This document shows positions 7,715 to 64,000 of a stretch of 64,000 bases of DNA, piece after piece (position 1 is the stretch's first letter; every line of letters begins with the position of its first letter). The notes below the pieces were generated by a model. It saw only the letters and a list, made by a program, of their open reading frames with translations. It searched no databases and was not told where the DNA came from. Made by a program: the position numbers and the translations under genes. Source of the stretch: Bacteroidetes bacterium SW_9_63_38 (lineage in GTDB: Bacteria > Bacteroidota > Rhodothermia > Rhodothermales > Salinibacteraceae); contig PXUA01000019.1 in assembly GCA_003022435.1 (NCBI GenBank), forward strand, positions 62,001-126,000, in the 5' to 3' direction.

Positions 7715-8407
7715 ATGCACGTCGAAGGCTTCACGTTCAGCGACTTCATGACAAATACCTATCTCTGTTACAACGGCGGGGAGGCGGTGATCGTGGACGC
7801 GAGCTGCGAGACCGAGGCGGAGCGACGCAAAGTGCTCAACGTCATCGACACGCACGACCTCACGGTCCAGCACCTGCTCCTCACCCACGCCCACGTCGAT
7901 CACATCTTCGGGTGTCGGTTTTTCGAAGAGCACTTCGACATGACGTTCACGGCCCATGAGGCGGCTGTGCCCTTTATCGAGCGGGCCGACGAGCAGGCCG
8001 CCGCCTTCGGCGTGCAGGTTGAGCCGCCGTCCGTGCCCACGACGTTTCTGGCGGAGGGAGATACTGTCTCGTTCGGCGGGGTCACACTGGAGGTGCTGCA
8101 TACGCCTGGCCACTCGCCGGACTCGATCTCGTTCGTACACCGGGACAGCGAACAGGCACTTACGGGGGACGTGCTCTTCCAAAATTCGATCGGGCGTACG
8201 CAAGGACTGCCCGAGACCTCTCGGGAGCAGCTCATGAGCTCGATCACCGACACGCTAATGCCGCTGGGCGACGAAATGCGCATTTATCCAGGGCACGGCC
8301 CCGACACCACCATCGGGCGTGAGCGAGAGCAAAATCCCTTTGTGCAAGAGGCGCTAGGAGAGTCCGGCGGGACGGATCGGTCCCGGTCTATGGGGTCGGG
8401 GCGGTAG
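7715..8407 (+). CDS. metallo-beta-lactamase fold hydrolase (glyoxalase II-like)
   Basis: Zinc-dependent cytosolic hydrolase, 230 residues. The metal site is complete: HAHVDH at 58-63, His133 in HTPGHS, Asp152 in LTGDVLF and His194 in YPGHG. The start at ATG 7715 gives MHVEGFTFSDFMTNTYL, the usual beginning of this group; an in-frame GTG at 7661 would add 18 residues without similarity. Members of this subgroup hydrolyse thioesters such as S-lactoyl-thiols. Its 3' end overlaps the tail of bshA by 20 bases on the other strand, so a bacillithiol-dependent substrate is a reasonable but unproven guess. Confidence 0.85.
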   Translation: MHVEGFTFSDFMTNTYLCYNGGEAVIVDASCETEAERRKVLNVIDTHDLTVQHLLLTHAHVDHIFGCRFFEEHFDMTFTAHEAAVPFIERADEQAAAFGVQVEPPSVPTTFLAEGDTVSFGGVTLEVLHTPGHSPDSISFVHRDSEQALTGDVLFQNSIGRTQGLPETSREQLMSSITDTLMPLGDEMRIYPGHGPDTTIGREREQNPFVQEALGESGGTDRSRSMGSGR

Positions 8408-9536
8408 TTTCTTCGCGCACCGTCTCGTAGTACTGCTCGTACAGCGGCACCACGTGACCGATGTCGAATGCGTCGACGGCGCGGCTCCGCGCGGCGGCGG
8501 CCATGCGCTGGTGCAGGGGGGCGTCGGTGAGGAGAGCCCGCGTGCGGTCCGTGAAGGTGTCCACGTCGTCCACCGGGCACAGGTAGCCGGTCTCGTCGTC
8601 CTCCACCAGTTCCGGCAGACCGCCCACGTCGCTCACCACGGTAGGCACCCCGCAGGCCATCGCCTCCAGGGCCGCGAGGCCGAAGGTCTCGGAGGCGCTC
8701 GGCATCAAAAACACGTCGGCAATCGAGAGAATTTCCTCGATCGGATCCTGCTTGCCGAGGAAGCGGATATCGTCGAATACACCCAGTTCGCGGGCCTTGC
8801 GTTCCGTCGGGACGCGCTCCGGCCCGTCCCCCACGAGCAGCAGCTTGACCTCCGGGGTGTCACCCTGCAGGCGGTGGAAGATTTCGACGACCTGCTTCGT
8901 GTTCTTGACCGGACGGAAGTTGGACACGTGCACGATGACTTTCTCCCCGTCCGGGCAGAGGGCCTGCTTGAAGTGCTCCTTGTCTTGCCGGTAGAATCGG
9001 TCGGTGTCAATGAAGTTGGGGATCACCTCAATGCCGTTCGTCACCTCGAAGTGGTCGTAGGTCTCCTGACGGAGATAACTGGAGACAGCCGTGACGCCGT
9101 CGGACTGGTTGATGGACCATGTCACGACGGGAGCAAACGACGGGTCCTGCCCGATGAGGGTGATGTCGGTGCCGTGCAGGGTTGTTATGATCGGGAGCGA
9201 GATGCCGTCACTCGCCAGAATCTGGCGGGCCATCACGGCGCTTGTGGCGTGCGGAATCGCGTAGTGAACGTGCAGCACGTCGAGCCCCGCGTGCTTGGCG
9301 ATGTCCACCATCTTGCTGGTGAGCGACAGCGTGTACGGCGGAGATTCGAAGAGCGGGTAGCTCTGTACGTTCACCTCGTGGAAGAAGATATTGCCGGCCA
9401 CGTGCGAGAGCCGGAACGGGAGAGAGGAGGAGATAAAGTGAACCTCGTCGCCGCGCTCCGCAAGGTTTTTGCCCAGTTCCGTAGCGACGACGCCGCTGCC
9501 GCCGTAGGTAGGATAACACGTAATGCCTATCTTCAT
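8388..9536 (-). CDS. bshA: N-acetyl-alpha-D-glucosaminyl L-malate synthase BshA
   Basis: First enzyme of bacillithiol synthesis: transfers GlcNAc from UDP-GlcNAc to L-malate. It is a 382-residue GT4 glycosyltransferase. The N-terminus MKIGITCYPTYGGSGVVATE and the block HVHYAIPHATSA are characteristic of BshA rather than other GT4 enzymes. The C-terminal donor site has SASETFGLAALEAMACG. bshB and bshC are not in the window. It converges on, and overlaps by 20 bases, the metallo-hydrolase gene. Bacillithiol replaces glutathione in many Bacteroidota, so this fits the lineage. Confidence 0.93.
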   Translation of the reverse strand: MKIGITCYPTYGGSGVVATELGKNLAERGDEVHFISSSLPFRLSHVAGNIFFHEVNVQSYPLFESPPYTLSLTSKMVDIAKHAGLDVLHVHYAIPHATSAVMARQILASDGISLPIITTLHGTDITLIGQDPSFAPVVTWSINQSDGVTAVSSYLRQETYDHFEVTNGIEVIPNFIDTDRFYRQDKEHFKQALCPDGEKVIVHVSNFRPVKNTKQVVEIFHRLQGDTPEVKLLLVGDGPERVPTERKARELGVFDDIRFLGKQDPIEEILSIADVFLMPSASETFGLAALEAMACGVPTVVSDVGGLPELVEDDETGYLCPVDDVDTFTDRTRALLTDAPLHQRMAAAARSRAVDAFDIGHVVPLYEQYYETVREETTAPTP

Positions 9537-59073: not shown

Positions 59074-59610
59074 CTACGGAAGCGAATCGGTGGCGGGAAG
59101 CCGCACCAGGGTGTATCCCGTCACGCGGACCGTGTCGAAAGACGTGATGTCGGCCTGTACCCTCATTCCCTTTCCGGTGATAAGCGTGCGGTTGTTCTCG
59201 TACGAGAGGTTGAGGGATTCGAGGGGACGGCGGGACGAATTCTCGAACGTCAGCTCATCGGGGGTGAAGACGTAATACACGCTCGACTGCGCATTTGAGG
59301 TGTCGGCCGAGAGGTTGCGCCAGCGGCCCTGGAGATAGTCCCGGAGGACGACGGCCGAATCCGGTTTGTGGAGGTCGAGGTACGTCCGTACAGAGTCACC
59401 GGCTTCGATCTTTGAGAGTCGCCCCGTGGGCCGGTAGGTGCGGCGTTCGAGGACCGAATCGCCGCGGGACACCGTCACGATCTGGGGCGTGCCGCCCTTG
59501 TACCGGGCGAGGGTGTCAGTGCGCCGGACATCCGATGCATCCTGAGAGGCACGGCGGGTACAGGCGCCGAGAAGGAGGATGCCTGCGAGGAGAAGTCGGA
59601 CTGCGCGCAC
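59074..59610 (-). CDS. lipoprotein, unknown function
   Basis: 178 residues from GTG 59610. Signal peptide with the lipobox LLGAC, so lipidated. The remainder is beta-rich with several VYYVFTPDELTFEN-like strands. No family recognised; the overall shape could match LptC-like or scaffold lipoproteins, but this is only a guess. The large lipoprotein gene precedes it in the same direction with a 43-base gap, so they likely form an operon. Confidence 0.6.
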   Translation of the reverse strand: MRAVRLLLAGILLLGACTRRASQDASDVRRTDTLARYKGGTPQIVTVSRGDSVLERRTYRPTGRLSKIEAGDSVRTYLDLHKPDSAVVLRDYLQGRWRNLSADTSNAQSSVYYVFTPDELTFENSSRRPLESLNLSYENNRTLITGKGMRVQADITSFDTVRVTGYTLVRLPATDSLP

Positions 59611-59653
59611 GGTCGGGCCGAAAGGAACCGGTCAATAGAACAACGAGGGTCTA

Positions 59654-61840
59654 TTAGCGCATGGAGGTGGAGCGCCAATTGGAGCGGAGGGGGAAGGGGA
59701 AAATCCGACAGTAATTCTGCTTCAACTGATTGGACTGCAGGCCCTCCCACGCCTTCAAGTAGCGCCGGCGGTAGGTGCCAGCCGGGGTCTGGATCACCTG
59801 CTGGGGAAAAGTGCGCCTCGTAATGTCTGTCCGTTTCCCGAGTCGAGAGGGAAGGAGCCCCGCGATCTTGGTAGTGGTAGATGTGTCTGCGCGGGCACGC
59901 GCCCGGAGGTGGAAGAAGCTTGAATCGACGACCATCACCTGCGTTCGGTACAGGGAAGTCGAGTCCGGGACGTGCCAGTAGGTCTGGGCGGGCGGATCCT
60001 GCAGGTACTCGTCCGGGACGACGTCCGTAACAACAGAGTCGGCTTCGGGGGAGACCGTTAAACGGAGCGAGTCGAGCGCGATGGAGTCCGAGTCGGGGGC
60101 CAGCAGGTCGAAGGAGCCCGCCAGGAACGGGTTCGGGCGGGGGCGGCGCGTGGTGTCGGCGATGGCAGTGTCAGCCGCTGCAGTGTCAGCCGCTGCGGAG
60201 TCGAGTTTCGCTTGCTGAGGACGAGACGGTCGCGGTAGACCGGCCGCCGCGAGCGACGTATCCGCGAAGGACGTGTCGACAAATGCGGTATCGGCAATGG
60301 TCGAGTTCCCCAGCATCGTGGACGCGGTGAGGGTGTCCCGGATTGCCAGCGAGTCCGGCGAGAACAGGTGAAAGAGGGAATCGGCGACCGGGGCGGTTAG
60401 AAGGAGCGAATCCTGAAGCGTCGTGTCTGGAATGGCATTGATGCCTCGCCGCATCTCGACGCGGGACAGCGCTGGAGCGTCCTCCAGATACGACTTCCGA
60501 ACGAACGTCGAAAGAGAGAGAAGTGAGTCAATCGGAATCTCGCCAGTCGGGAGGCCCCGTCCGAGGGCGTTCACCAGACTGTCATCGAGGATCAAGGAGT
60601 CGACGCGGGTCCGGTCGGTGCGGTCTACAACATGGAAGGTTTTCTCCGGGCCATCAATTGCGACGGTGTCCACGTCGGGAACCGAGCGGTCGGCCCGTAC
60701 TCGAGCACGAAGCGAGTCGCGCTGCGCCCGTACCTTGACCGAGTCGGGAATGTAGAGCATGTTTTTCGCCTCCGTCGGCGAGCTCGCCGCGTTCCCATCA
60801 CGCAGGGTTGAAAAGAGGGTGTAGCCGCTTCGGGTGACTGCGGTGTCGATTCCAGTGATGCGCATCTTTGTGGTGTCCCGCTGAAGGACCAAGCTGTCCG
60901 GGACGCGGACGGCCCCGGCCGTCCGGAGCGTATCGAACACCGGTACCTGCAGAGAGTCGAGGTCGAGGTCCGGGAACGTCGTCTCCGAGGTGGCGCGGAG
61001 CGTGTCGTTGATGGAGAACGTGTATCGCATCCGGGCGTAGATGGTCGTTCCCGTGCTCACACTGTCGCCGACAACCAAAGTCGTCGGCTGCAAGCGTTCA
61101 GCGGCCTGCGGCACCACGGGCAGGATGTTGTCCTTCGTGTAGATGCGGTGGCCCTCGTCGGGCGGAGCGTTCTTATGCTCATAGGGAAGGGGGTCATTGT
61201 TGCCGTCGTACAACTGCACCTCGAAGTGGCCCAGCTTGCCGTAGTTGTCGGGAAAAAAGAGGGTTGTTGTCGGCAGGTCGTTGACCGTGACGGGCTGGAT
61301 GCGCACCTCCCCATCACTGGCAAAGACATCAATGAGCTGCACCTGAACCTTGCTGGAGTCGCTTTTGTACTGTGAGGTCATTTTGCCCCAGTTGAACGGA
61401 CGACTCCCCTGACAATTGATCGACAGGACTTTCTGGAGGAGGGGAATGTTCGTCGTTGTGATGGAGTCGTCGGGTTCGATGAGTACTGACACGTGTCGCT
61501 GCGTGTGGTAGCCGTAACCCCCGACGTCAAGGAGGTAGAGGGCTGGCTCCACGTTTCGCAGCACAAACGTCCCGGCCGAATCTGTTTTCATCGTATCGTC
61601 CGCTGCACTTGTCCCCGACGTACCGGCATCCACCGTCCGGAAGATGGTGCGGGCGCTATCAAGCGGCGTGCCCTCCGAGCTATCGAGCGCTGTCAGCTTG
61701 AGCGTGCGCGTCGAAGCCGACGTTTTCTTCGTGGTGGACTTTGAACTGCTACACGCATTCACGACGAGAATACATCCGAGAAGAACAACGCTCCCGAGCA
61801 ACGAGCGGAGCAGGGGGACAGTCGACGGAGACGGGGTCAT
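59654..61840 (-). CDS. large lipoprotein with Asp/Ser/Thr-rich repeats, unknown function
   Basis: 728 residues from ATG 61840. The signal peptide ends in a VVNAC lipobox, followed by a Ser/Lys/Thr-rich stretch. Residues about 45-130 resemble a carboxypeptidase-regulatory-like beta-sandwich (FVLRNVEPALYLLDVGGYGY). From about 280 to 650 the sequence becomes strikingly biased, with recurring DSL, DTAFVDT and ADTAAADTA units. The last 80 residues are basic and structured. The bias suggests a flexible, highly acidic periplasmic stalk. Co-directional with the smaller lipoprotein downstream. Confidence 0.65.
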   Translation of the reverse strand: MTPSPSTVPLLRSLLGSVVLLGCILVVNACSSSKSTTKKTSASTRTLKLTALDSSEGTPLDSARTIFRTVDAGTSGTSAADDTMKTDSAGTFVLRNVEPALYLLDVGGYGYHTQRHVSVLIEPDDSITTTNIPLLQKVLSINCQGSRPFNWGKMTSQYKSDSSKVQVQLIDVFASDGEVRIQPVTVNDLPTTTLFFPDNYGKLGHFEVQLYDGNNDPLPYEHKNAPPDEGHRIYTKDNILPVVPQAAERLQPTTLVVGDSVSTGTTIYARMRYTFSINDTLRATSETTFPDLDLDSLQVPVFDTLRTAGAVRVPDSLVLQRDTTKMRITGIDTAVTRSGYTLFSTLRDGNAASSPTEAKNMLYIPDSVKVRAQRDSLRARVRADRSVPDVDTVAIDGPEKTFHVVDRTDRTRVDSLILDDSLVNALGRGLPTGEIPIDSLLSLSTFVRKSYLEDAPALSRVEMRRGINAIPDTTLQDSLLLTAPVADSLFHLFSPDSLAIRDTLTASTMLGNSTIADTAFVDTSFADTSLAAAGLPRPSRPQQAKLDSAAADTAAADTAIADTTRRPRPNPFLAGSFDLLAPDSDSIALDSLRLTVSPEADSVVTDVVPDEYLQDPPAQTYWHVPDSTSLYRTQVMVVDSSFFHLRARARADTSTTTKIAGLLPSRLGKRTDITRRTFPQQVIQTPAGTYRRRYLKAWEGLQSNQLKQNYCRIFPFPLRSNWRSTSMR

Positions 61841-61924
61841 AAAGGGGAAGAAGACCGAGGCAGTTTATGCACCAAAGGTCAGTCCAAAGAACGAGAGCGC
61901 TGCTGTAAAAGCAATCCGAGACGA

Positions 61925-62452
61925 TTAGGCGTCGAGTTGGGACTTGGAGAGCGGATAGCCGGCCTCCTCGAGAAGGATTCGATGTGAACGTCGGCGTTCC
62001 CGGCTCGGATCGGGAATGGTCGAGACGGCTTTAATAGCCGCGATGTGCGAGTCGGGTAGGCCGTGCTGGCGGGCCCCGGCGAGGACGAGGGCGTGATACC
62101 ACTCGTAGGGATGGAGCGCGTCGTCGACGTAGAACGGGTCGGCGACGTAAGCGAAGGCCTCGACGGCCTCCGTTGTGCCCTGAACGGTCACAGACTGGCG
62201 CCGATAGCGCCGTCCCTGCTGTTCGGCCTCGTCGAGTGCGTCCAGGTCCGCCGGGGAAACCTCAAAAACGACGCCGTGCACCGTCTCGCTGGGGGCCGAT
62301 ACGATGTTGCACTTTCCCGACCCGTCCCGACTGCGTTTGTGAAAGCGGAGTGTGTGCTCCGGAAGCTTCGCATTCATGGCCGGCTCGGCGGATGGGACGC
62401 GACGTCGGAGCCGGGACAGAAGCATGTTGGAGCCGTACCCGAAGTAGTACAT
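61925..62452 (-). CDS. gamma-glutamylcyclotransferase family protein
   Basis: 175 residues from ATG 62452. The family motif YFGYGSNM is at 3-10, with MNAKLPEHTLRFHKRS and VHGVVFEVSPADLDALDEAE giving the barrel core and the conserved acidic residue. GGCT enzymes cyclise gamma-glutamyl groups to 5-oxoproline, releasing the attached amino acid or thiol. It is third in a leftward run behind a class I amidotransferase-like gene and a GCS2-type ligase, which suggests turnover of a gamma-glutamyl thiol. Confidence 0.88.
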   Translation of the reverse strand: MYYFGYGSNMLLSRLRRRVPSAEPAMNAKLPEHTLRFHKRSRDGSGKCNIVSAPSETVHGVVFEVSPADLDALDEAEQQGRRYRRQSVTVQGTTEAVEAFAYVADPFYVDDALHPYEWYHALVLAGARQHGLPDSHIAAIKAVSTIPDPSRERRRSHRILLEEAGYPLSKSQLDA

Positions 62453-62586
62453 ACCGGGGCGGGGGCGGAGAGCGACACGGAGAGGCGAGACCGATCAAGC
62501 GGTTTACTCCAGAACAACAACGACCGCTGTGGCCGGTAGATCCCTCGAAAGATCTTCGCTGTGTCTGCTTCCTGTGCGCTGACCTC

Positions 62587-63312
62587 TTATCCCATCGGGG
62601 CCCGCTGCGGCGTCCGGGCCTGTACATCGGTCAGAAAATTGTCGAAGACCGACGTGACGGGGCGGGCCTGTTCGTAGTGCTCGACGTGGATGTCGTCGAG
62701 CACCCGCTGGAGGCGAGCGCCAGCGAGCTGGCCGTCCTTGCCTTCCGCAATCATGCGGGCCGTCTGGAGGTCGTACTCAGGGTGAAACTGGACACCGTAC
62801 ACCTGATCTTTCCGAAAGCCCTGGATGCCGTAGTCGTTCGCAGCGAGGACGGTCCCGCCGGGGGGAAGCGCTGCGACACGGTCCGAATGGGTCGTGAAGA
62901 CAGTCATGGACCCCGGGATTCCATCGAACAGCGTGCCCTGACCGGTATGCTCAACAGTCCGATATCCGATCTCATACTCGTCCATGTCCTCAACGTGCCC
63001 CCCGGTGACGTCTGCGAGCAACTGGTGACCGTAGCAGATGCCGAGCGCGGGAAGGCCAGCCGTGACGGCTTTCTCCACCCAGCGCTTCAGTTCCCGAATC
63101 CAGTCCCGGTCCCAGTACACAGACGTACTGGAACCGGTGATGACGATCCCGTCGTATCCAAAGTCGCAAGGAAGGTCACCGGACGGGCAGTGAAACTCGT
63201 CCAGCTCCGCGTCGAGCACCCGTCGAAAGTTTCGGCGCGTCGTCTCGACAGTGTGCGAAGCGTCAAGGAGCGCGATGCGGGGCCGCTCGGCGGGCGTCGA
63301 ACACGTGTTCAT
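62587..63312 (-). CDS. class I glutamine amidotransferase-like protein
   Basis: 241 residues from ATG 63312. The triad is intact: nucleophile in ALGICYGHQLL and the His-Glu pair in VQFHPEYD. The first conserved loop reads VITGSSTSVYW, in place of the usual GGP. The group contains GMP-synthase-like amidotransferases and gamma-glutamyl peptidases. With the ligase upstream (38 bases) and GGCT downstream, a gamma-glutamyl hydrolase role is plausible. An in-frame start at 63330 is an alternative. Confidence 0.82.
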   Translation of the reverse strand: MNTCSTPAERPRIALLDASHTVETTRRNFRRVLDAELDEFHCPSGDLPCDFGYDGIVITGSSTSVYWDRDWIRELKRWVEKAVTAGLPALGICYGHQLLADVTGGHVEDMDEYEIGYRTVEHTGQGTLFDGIPGSMTVFTTHSDRVAALPPGGTVLAANDYGIQGFRKDQVYGVQFHPEYDLQTARMIAEGKDGQLAGARLQRVLDDIHVEHYEQARPVTSVFDNFLTDVQARTPQRAPMG

Positions 63313-63350
63313 AGGAAGAACCAAGATCAAGACGAGGAAAACGGAGGGGA

Positions 63351-64000
63351 CTATTCGAAAGCGGCGGGCGCGCGAGCTTCCACGTCGGCCCGGAGCTGCT
63401 CGGCAGACTCAAGTCGGACGCGTCGGGCAGCCGACTTGGGAATCGGAGCGCAATCAAACGTGTTCACAAAAGGGGTGTACGCGTCCACGTCGAAGCCCAC
63501 TCGGTCGAGGTACGAGCACACTCGGTCCGAGTCAAGGCCGTCTCGAATGGCCAAATCGACGTGCGTAGCAACCGTGTCGAACGAGGGGAGGATCATTTCG
63601 CCATCGTTGAAGTCTCCGCGGCCGTTCCCCTGTCGGACCGGCGTGCGACGAACGCGATCCATGAGGGAGGTCATTGTCTCGGCCAGTCGAAGCACCTCGC
63701 TCGGCAGGGTCGTGTCCGGAGAGCGCCATTCAACCGTTCCGAAGGTGTCGCGCAGTTTGATAGGAATCCACGCGGCACATTCGGGCAGGTCGGCGTCGAA
63801 GCAGGAATCGACGGTGTCCCGATCTGCGCCGTTCCGAAGGGCGCGGGCGCGAAAGTCGTCGTAGCAGTCGCTGAGACGCTGTTCCCACTCGTCGCGGTCG
63901 GACACGTACGACCACAGCGTGCCCTGAAGGGGGCATCCGTCGTACGCCCGGCGGCGGTACAGCTCCGACCGCGCCCCGGCAACGAGGGGCTGCCCCCGAA
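63351..64000 (-). CDS. GCS2-family glutamate-cysteine ligase-like protein, 5' end outside window
   Basis: The frame is open to the right edge, so the visible 215 residues are the C-terminal part. The block WIPIKLRDTFGTVEWRSPDTTLPSE-type region (residues around base 63750-63680) matches the GCS2/YbdK-type ligases that form gamma-glutamylcysteine from ATP, glutamate and cysteine; haloarchaeal GshA belongs to this group. The preceding PLVAGARSELYRRRAYDG part fits the same fold. First gene of a leftward run with amidotransferase and GGCT genes. Confidence 0.72.
   Translation of the reverse strand, partial: RGQPLVAGARSELYRRRAYDGCPLQGTLWSYVSDRDEWEQRLSDCYDDFRARALRNGADRDTVDSCFDADLPECAAWIPIKLRDTFGTVEWRSPDTTLPSEVLRLAETMTSLMDRVRRTPVRQGNGRGDFNDGEMILPSFDTVATHVDLAIRDGLDSDRVCSYLDRVGFDVDAYTPFVNTFDCAPIPKSAARRVRLESAEQLRADVEARAPAAFE

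Follow-up and report, generated by a model that had tools for sequence, protein, structure and literature searches.

Genes at the locus

The window analysed here is a stretch of 64,000 nt of contig PXUA01000019.1 (positions 62,001-126,000, forward strand) from the genome of Bacteroidetes bacterium SW_9_63_38, assembly GCA_003022435.1, which is 84% complete and is called G000 below. Three minus-strand open frames at the end of the window form one leftward run and are separated by 38 and 134 bases, as had been described in a sequence-only reading of this DNA. The Pfam matches agree with that reading as to what the three genes encode: a GCS2-type ligase (41.8 bits, cut-off 21), a class I GATase-like protein (82.8 bits) and a gamma-glutamylcyclotransferase (GGACT, 50.2 bits). 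All three genes are intact (Table 1), the ligase being truncated only by the end of the window; in the genome it is complete, with 372 aa encoded at L003:10352-11470 on the minus strand, equivalent to window positions 63351-64469. The GATase coordinates are those of an ATG start, and an alternative TTG start is possible at 63330.

Table 1. Genes of the locus and their positions in the 64,000 nt window
Feature	Position	Strand	Basis
GCS2-fold ligase, C-terminal part (~residues 157-372)	63351..64000, gene runs on to window-equivalent 64469	-	Open frame, Pfam, strand-6 motif
Class I GATase-like protein, likely gamma-glutamyl peptidase	62587..63312	-	Pfam, triad, PDB match
Gamma-glutamylcyclotransferase (GGACT/AIG2 family), resident Salinibacter gene	61925..62452	-	Pfam, YGSN motif, Glu77
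728-aa putative lipoprotein, downstream	59654..61840	-	Part of variable spot, outside the module
bshA, bacillithiol glycosyltransferase (context only)	8391..9533	-	TIGR03999, 557.6 bits

The ligase is a distinct GCS2-fold family

Membership of the GCS2 superfamily is indicated by the PF04107 scores of the ligase family, which run from 38.7 to 47.1 bits. The ligase retains the strand-1 motif S-I-E14-V-E16 (ExE), H124xH126 of strand 4 and E247-x-R249-x-x-D252 of strand 6, the last of these lying inside the window part of the gene. Also kept are the acidic residues and arginines among the GCS2 motifs described in PMC2588565. The GhExE signature has been called absolutely conserved in GCS2 (PMC2588565), but serine replaces its glycine in the entire ligase family, which is, judging from the sequences, a departure of this subfamily from the signature. 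A haloarchaeal member was modelled with AlphaFold2 at middling confidence (pLDDT 69, pTM 0.70); the closest structural matches of the model are YbdK, with Z 17.1 and 4.3 A over 280 residues, and the plant GCL, with Z 15.1 and 5.2 A over 290 residues. Because the catalytic motifs are kept and the model resembles YbdK and plant glutamate-cysteine ligase, the protein is predicted to be an active enzyme, likely an ATP-dependent amide ligase.

The sequence-only reading linked the ligase to the haloarchaeal GshA type, which is not supported. GshA (HVO_1668 type, NF010045/PRK13518) does share with it the GCS2 fold, the catalytic motifs and an occurrence in haloarchaea, but the two are only about 24-26% identical where the alignment is long. 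They also coexist: a true GshA, scoring about 656-711 bits, is present in 13 of 13 haloarchaeal genomes checked that carry a relative of the ligase. Against the GshA model NF010045 (cut-off 395 bits) no match is listed for the ligase, and the sole match in its own genome is one of 22.8 bits to another protein. YbdK provides both the nearest NCBIfam model (TIGR02050) and the nearest solved structure to the family model, yet the ligase scores 39.7 bits where the cut-off is 176.4, and it reaches no NCBIfam cut-off. In the phylogeny the family groups neither with GshA nor with YbdK; it stands apart from these and from the Rhodothermales GCS2 proteins on a very long branch, with full support in a tree whose bootstrap had not settled. 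This tree was built without a CBS-domain GCS2 protein and two long rows, an earlier tree that included them having been unreliable. Orthology to GshA or YbdK is rejected by the model scores and the tree together.

Distribution and probable transfer between domains

A haloarchaeal connection, which the sequence-only reading had also proposed, is upheld in that the ligase family is haloarchaeal. A scan of named genomes, based on short peptide patterns from a single protein and thereby limited to close relatives, found full-length relatives in haloarchaea alone, at 45-58% identity. At least one ligase is present in 194 of 392 Halobacteriales genomes and some of the haloarchaeal copies are plasmid-borne; no relative was found in viral contigs. 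Among 114 genomes of the order to which the window belongs, a full-length ligase is present in two, G000 and G071, both from the same genus, where they make up 2 of the 13 Salinibacter genomes. In a sample of the phylum it is present in 1 of 395 genomes, again G000.

This is a well-mapped likely case of transfer from archaea to a bacterium. The direction rests on the distribution because the tree leaves it unresolved: an all-haloarchaeal clade with the Salinibacter pair outside it is not rejected (p-AU 0.381). Against a transfer stands the GC content of the module, which is similar to that of the genome in which it lies. Loss of the ligase from the other Salinibacter may be an alternative to gain.

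The GATase-like partner

The GATase has the Cys-His-Glu triad of the class I GATase / Peptidase C26 family. Its residues (C99, H183 and E185, numbered from the TTG at 63330) are invariant, within conserved motifs, in an alignment of 39 sequences. The best sequence match in the PDB is gamma-glutamyl peptidase 1 (GGP1), slightly ahead of GMP synthase. The family and the triad are thus shared with GGP1 and PuuD, but the peptidase role of the GATase is a prediction from sequence, and GMP synthase subunits score nearly equally. Relatives of the GATase at E 1e-55 occur in nearly all Halobacteriales (375 of 392 genomes).

Close relatives of the GATase are linked to the ligase in haloarchaea. In 22 cases they are in tandem, directly after the ligase with gaps of 19-172 bases, for example on Natronomonas pharaonis PL131 and on a plasmid of Natronorubrum bangense, where the partner is annotated as 'GMP synthase'; four other pairs are divergent. 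Most haloarchaeal ligase loci are without an adjacent GATase. The ligase is present in 44 of the 50 genomes that have a close GATase, compared with 150 of the 342 others (Fisher p 1.6e-9, kinship ignored), and the co-occurrence is still seen when the adjacent cases are left out (p 0.003, kinship ignored). Six genomes have a close GATase and no detected ligase.

Tandem pairs of this kind, together with the resemblance of the GATase to the GATase subunits of GMP synthase, would fit a two-subunit glutamine-dependent amidotransferase, in which the GATase supplies ammonia from glutamine and the ligase amidates a carboxylate. This is unlikely. The divergent pairs, the non-adjacent copies and the six genomes with a close GATase alone suggest that the GATase can act by itself, and the near-universal occurrence of related GATases in haloarchaea also speaks against this reading. 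To our knowledge, the GCS2 enzymes that have been characterized take amino acids as acceptors.

No wider conserved haloarchaeal operon was found, nothing else being conserved around the ligase-GATase pair across 20 loci of about 18 kb each. In Natrinema (L024, L182) the ligase is near genes for PAPS-reductase-like, glutaredoxin and succinylglutamate desuccinylase-like proteins, a setting that is not conserved at the other loci inspected.

The cyclotransferase and the variable spot

The cyclotransferase carries a Y6-G-S-N motif and its Glu77 aligns with Glu98, the catalytic glutamate, of human gamma-glutamylcyclotransferase (E 1.6e-9). Most Salinibacter have only the order recA-PAP2-DUF1015-RNase R. 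In G068 an intact cyclotransferase gene is next to DUF1015, some 400 bases away from it, and there is neither ligase nor GATase; in G070 a degenerate copy with frame breaks is at the same spot (L174:5416-5585), again without the ligase. In G000 and G071 the GATase and the ligase are between the cyclotransferase and DUF1015, and the gene order of the window with the ligase is confined to these two; the G071 cyclotransferase is divided between two contigs. Since sister genomes have the cyclotransferase at this spot without the pair, the pair was either gained between the cyclotransferase and DUF1015 or lost from the sisters. No cyclotransferase relative was found at E 1e-8 among 195 haloarchaeal genomes, a set without a positive control.

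The cyclotransferase is therefore separate from the haloarchaeal-type two-gene unit, and the view of the three genes as one module, put forward in the sequence-only reading, is not supported. That all three nevertheless work as a single module in Salinibacter, having been gained or retained jointly, is rather improbable given the sister genomes G068 and G070 and the haloarchaeal search. It would be in keeping with the shared strand and with the same order in G000 and G071, and the gene combination recalls neighbourhoods described by Iyer et al. 2008 (PMC2588565). In those, genes of a second new family of carboxylate-amine ligases adjoin either the gene of a GATase-like thiol peptidase or that of an Aig2 cyclotransferase, and the synthesis of glutathione-like peptides was predicted (PMC2588565). 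The arrangement is alike, but that family is proteobacterial and firmicute, whereas the ligase here is haloarchaeal and matches GCS2 instead. A search of the ligase against PF12224 Amidoligase_2, which we take to be the Iyer family, gave no match even with the E limit set at 10. By analogy, the three-gene set may work like those neighbourhoods, though with a ligase of another family.

The interval from recA-PAP2 to DUF1015 (window 59074-62452) is a variable spot in Salinibacter. The 728-aa putative lipoprotein belongs to it and recurs there in a single sister genome, G070. A tRNA-Met is found there in G068 and G065 (L173:8611-8684 and L180:4774-4847), although not at this spot in G000, and hints at an integration site.

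Proposed function of the pair

Gamma-glutamyl amides are formed by PuuA in the PuuA/PuuD scheme, and the glutamyl group is removed by PuuD and by GGP1. The best explanation, with a probability of roughly 0.6, is that the ligase and GATase are a haloarchaeal-type two-gene module, horizontally gained and inserted upstream of the resident cyclotransferase, in which the ligase adds a gamma-glutamyl group and the GATase removes it. The module would have entered the Salinibacter lineage and inserted beside the cyclotransferase, between recA-PAP2 and DUF1015. The ligase would use ATP to convert a carboxylate, in all likelihood the one at the gamma position of glutamate, into an acyl phosphate and so couple it to an amine. 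Hydrolysis of the resulting gamma-glutamyl amide would then fall to the GATase-like protein, in the manner of PuuD or GGP1, so that the group is added and afterwards taken off. In Salinibacter the neighbouring cyclotransferase could also clear gamma-glutamyl products as 5-oxoproline, which would be due either to chance placement or to recruitment at a later stage.

Cysteine alone is probably not the acceptor amine. GshA is already present in the haloarchaea that carry the pair, which favours a product other than gamma-glutamylcysteine. More tentatively, some half of the haloarchaeal species, along with a few Salinibacter, might produce and turn over a gamma-glutamyl compound not yet described by means of a non-GshA GCS2-fold ligase and a dedicated gamma-glutamyl peptidase, partly carried on plasmids and passed across domains. 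The public names 'glutamate--cysteine ligase' and 'GMP synthase' hide this widespread haloarchaeal pair of ligase and peptidase.

Bacillithiol and gamma-glutamylcysteine

The sequence-only reading held that bshA in the window implies bacillithiol, and the genes bear this out. As well as bshA, bshC is present in G000 and in 13 of 13 Salinibacter, in 12 of them over the family cut-off; that of G071 is broken across two contigs. Because both genes are present, the cell is predicted to make bacillithiol, and this is likely. The literature collection searched contained no paper naming Salinibacter together with bacillithiol.

It had further been proposed that gamma-glutamylcysteine, the haloarchaeal thiol (PMC7278568), is a second thiol made by the ligase and degraded by the GATase and cyclotransferase. 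The ligase does have the GCS2 fold with all of its catalytic residues, and the title of a paper cited in PMC2588565 credits YbdK with gamma-glutamyl:cysteine ligase activity. However, the ligase is not orthologous to GshA, whose presence in all of the haloarchaea tested would make a second copy redundant there, and just 2 of the 13 Salinibacter genomes have the ligase. As to a bis-gamma-glutamylcystine reductase, no dedicated disulfide reductase is evident in the 84%-complete genome, where the Pyr_redox_dim proteins are only two, a lipoamide dehydrogenase and one unassigned FAD oxidoreductase. A resident GCS2 protein with CBS domains, found in all 13 Salinibacter genomes, is also an equal candidate for such a role. 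The second-thiol reading is weakened by these findings and is unlikely, and GCS2 names should be seen as poor ground for inferring a second thiol.

This CBS-GCS2 protein is the second GCS2 protein of the genome (L004:7966-10239, G000:C5). It has 757 aa by its longest frame, is fused to two CBS domains and adjoins lipoamide dehydrogenase. Each of the 13 Salinibacter genomes has a GCS2 protein whose frame is of similar size. It is possibly a nucleotide-sensing gamma-glutamyl ligase.
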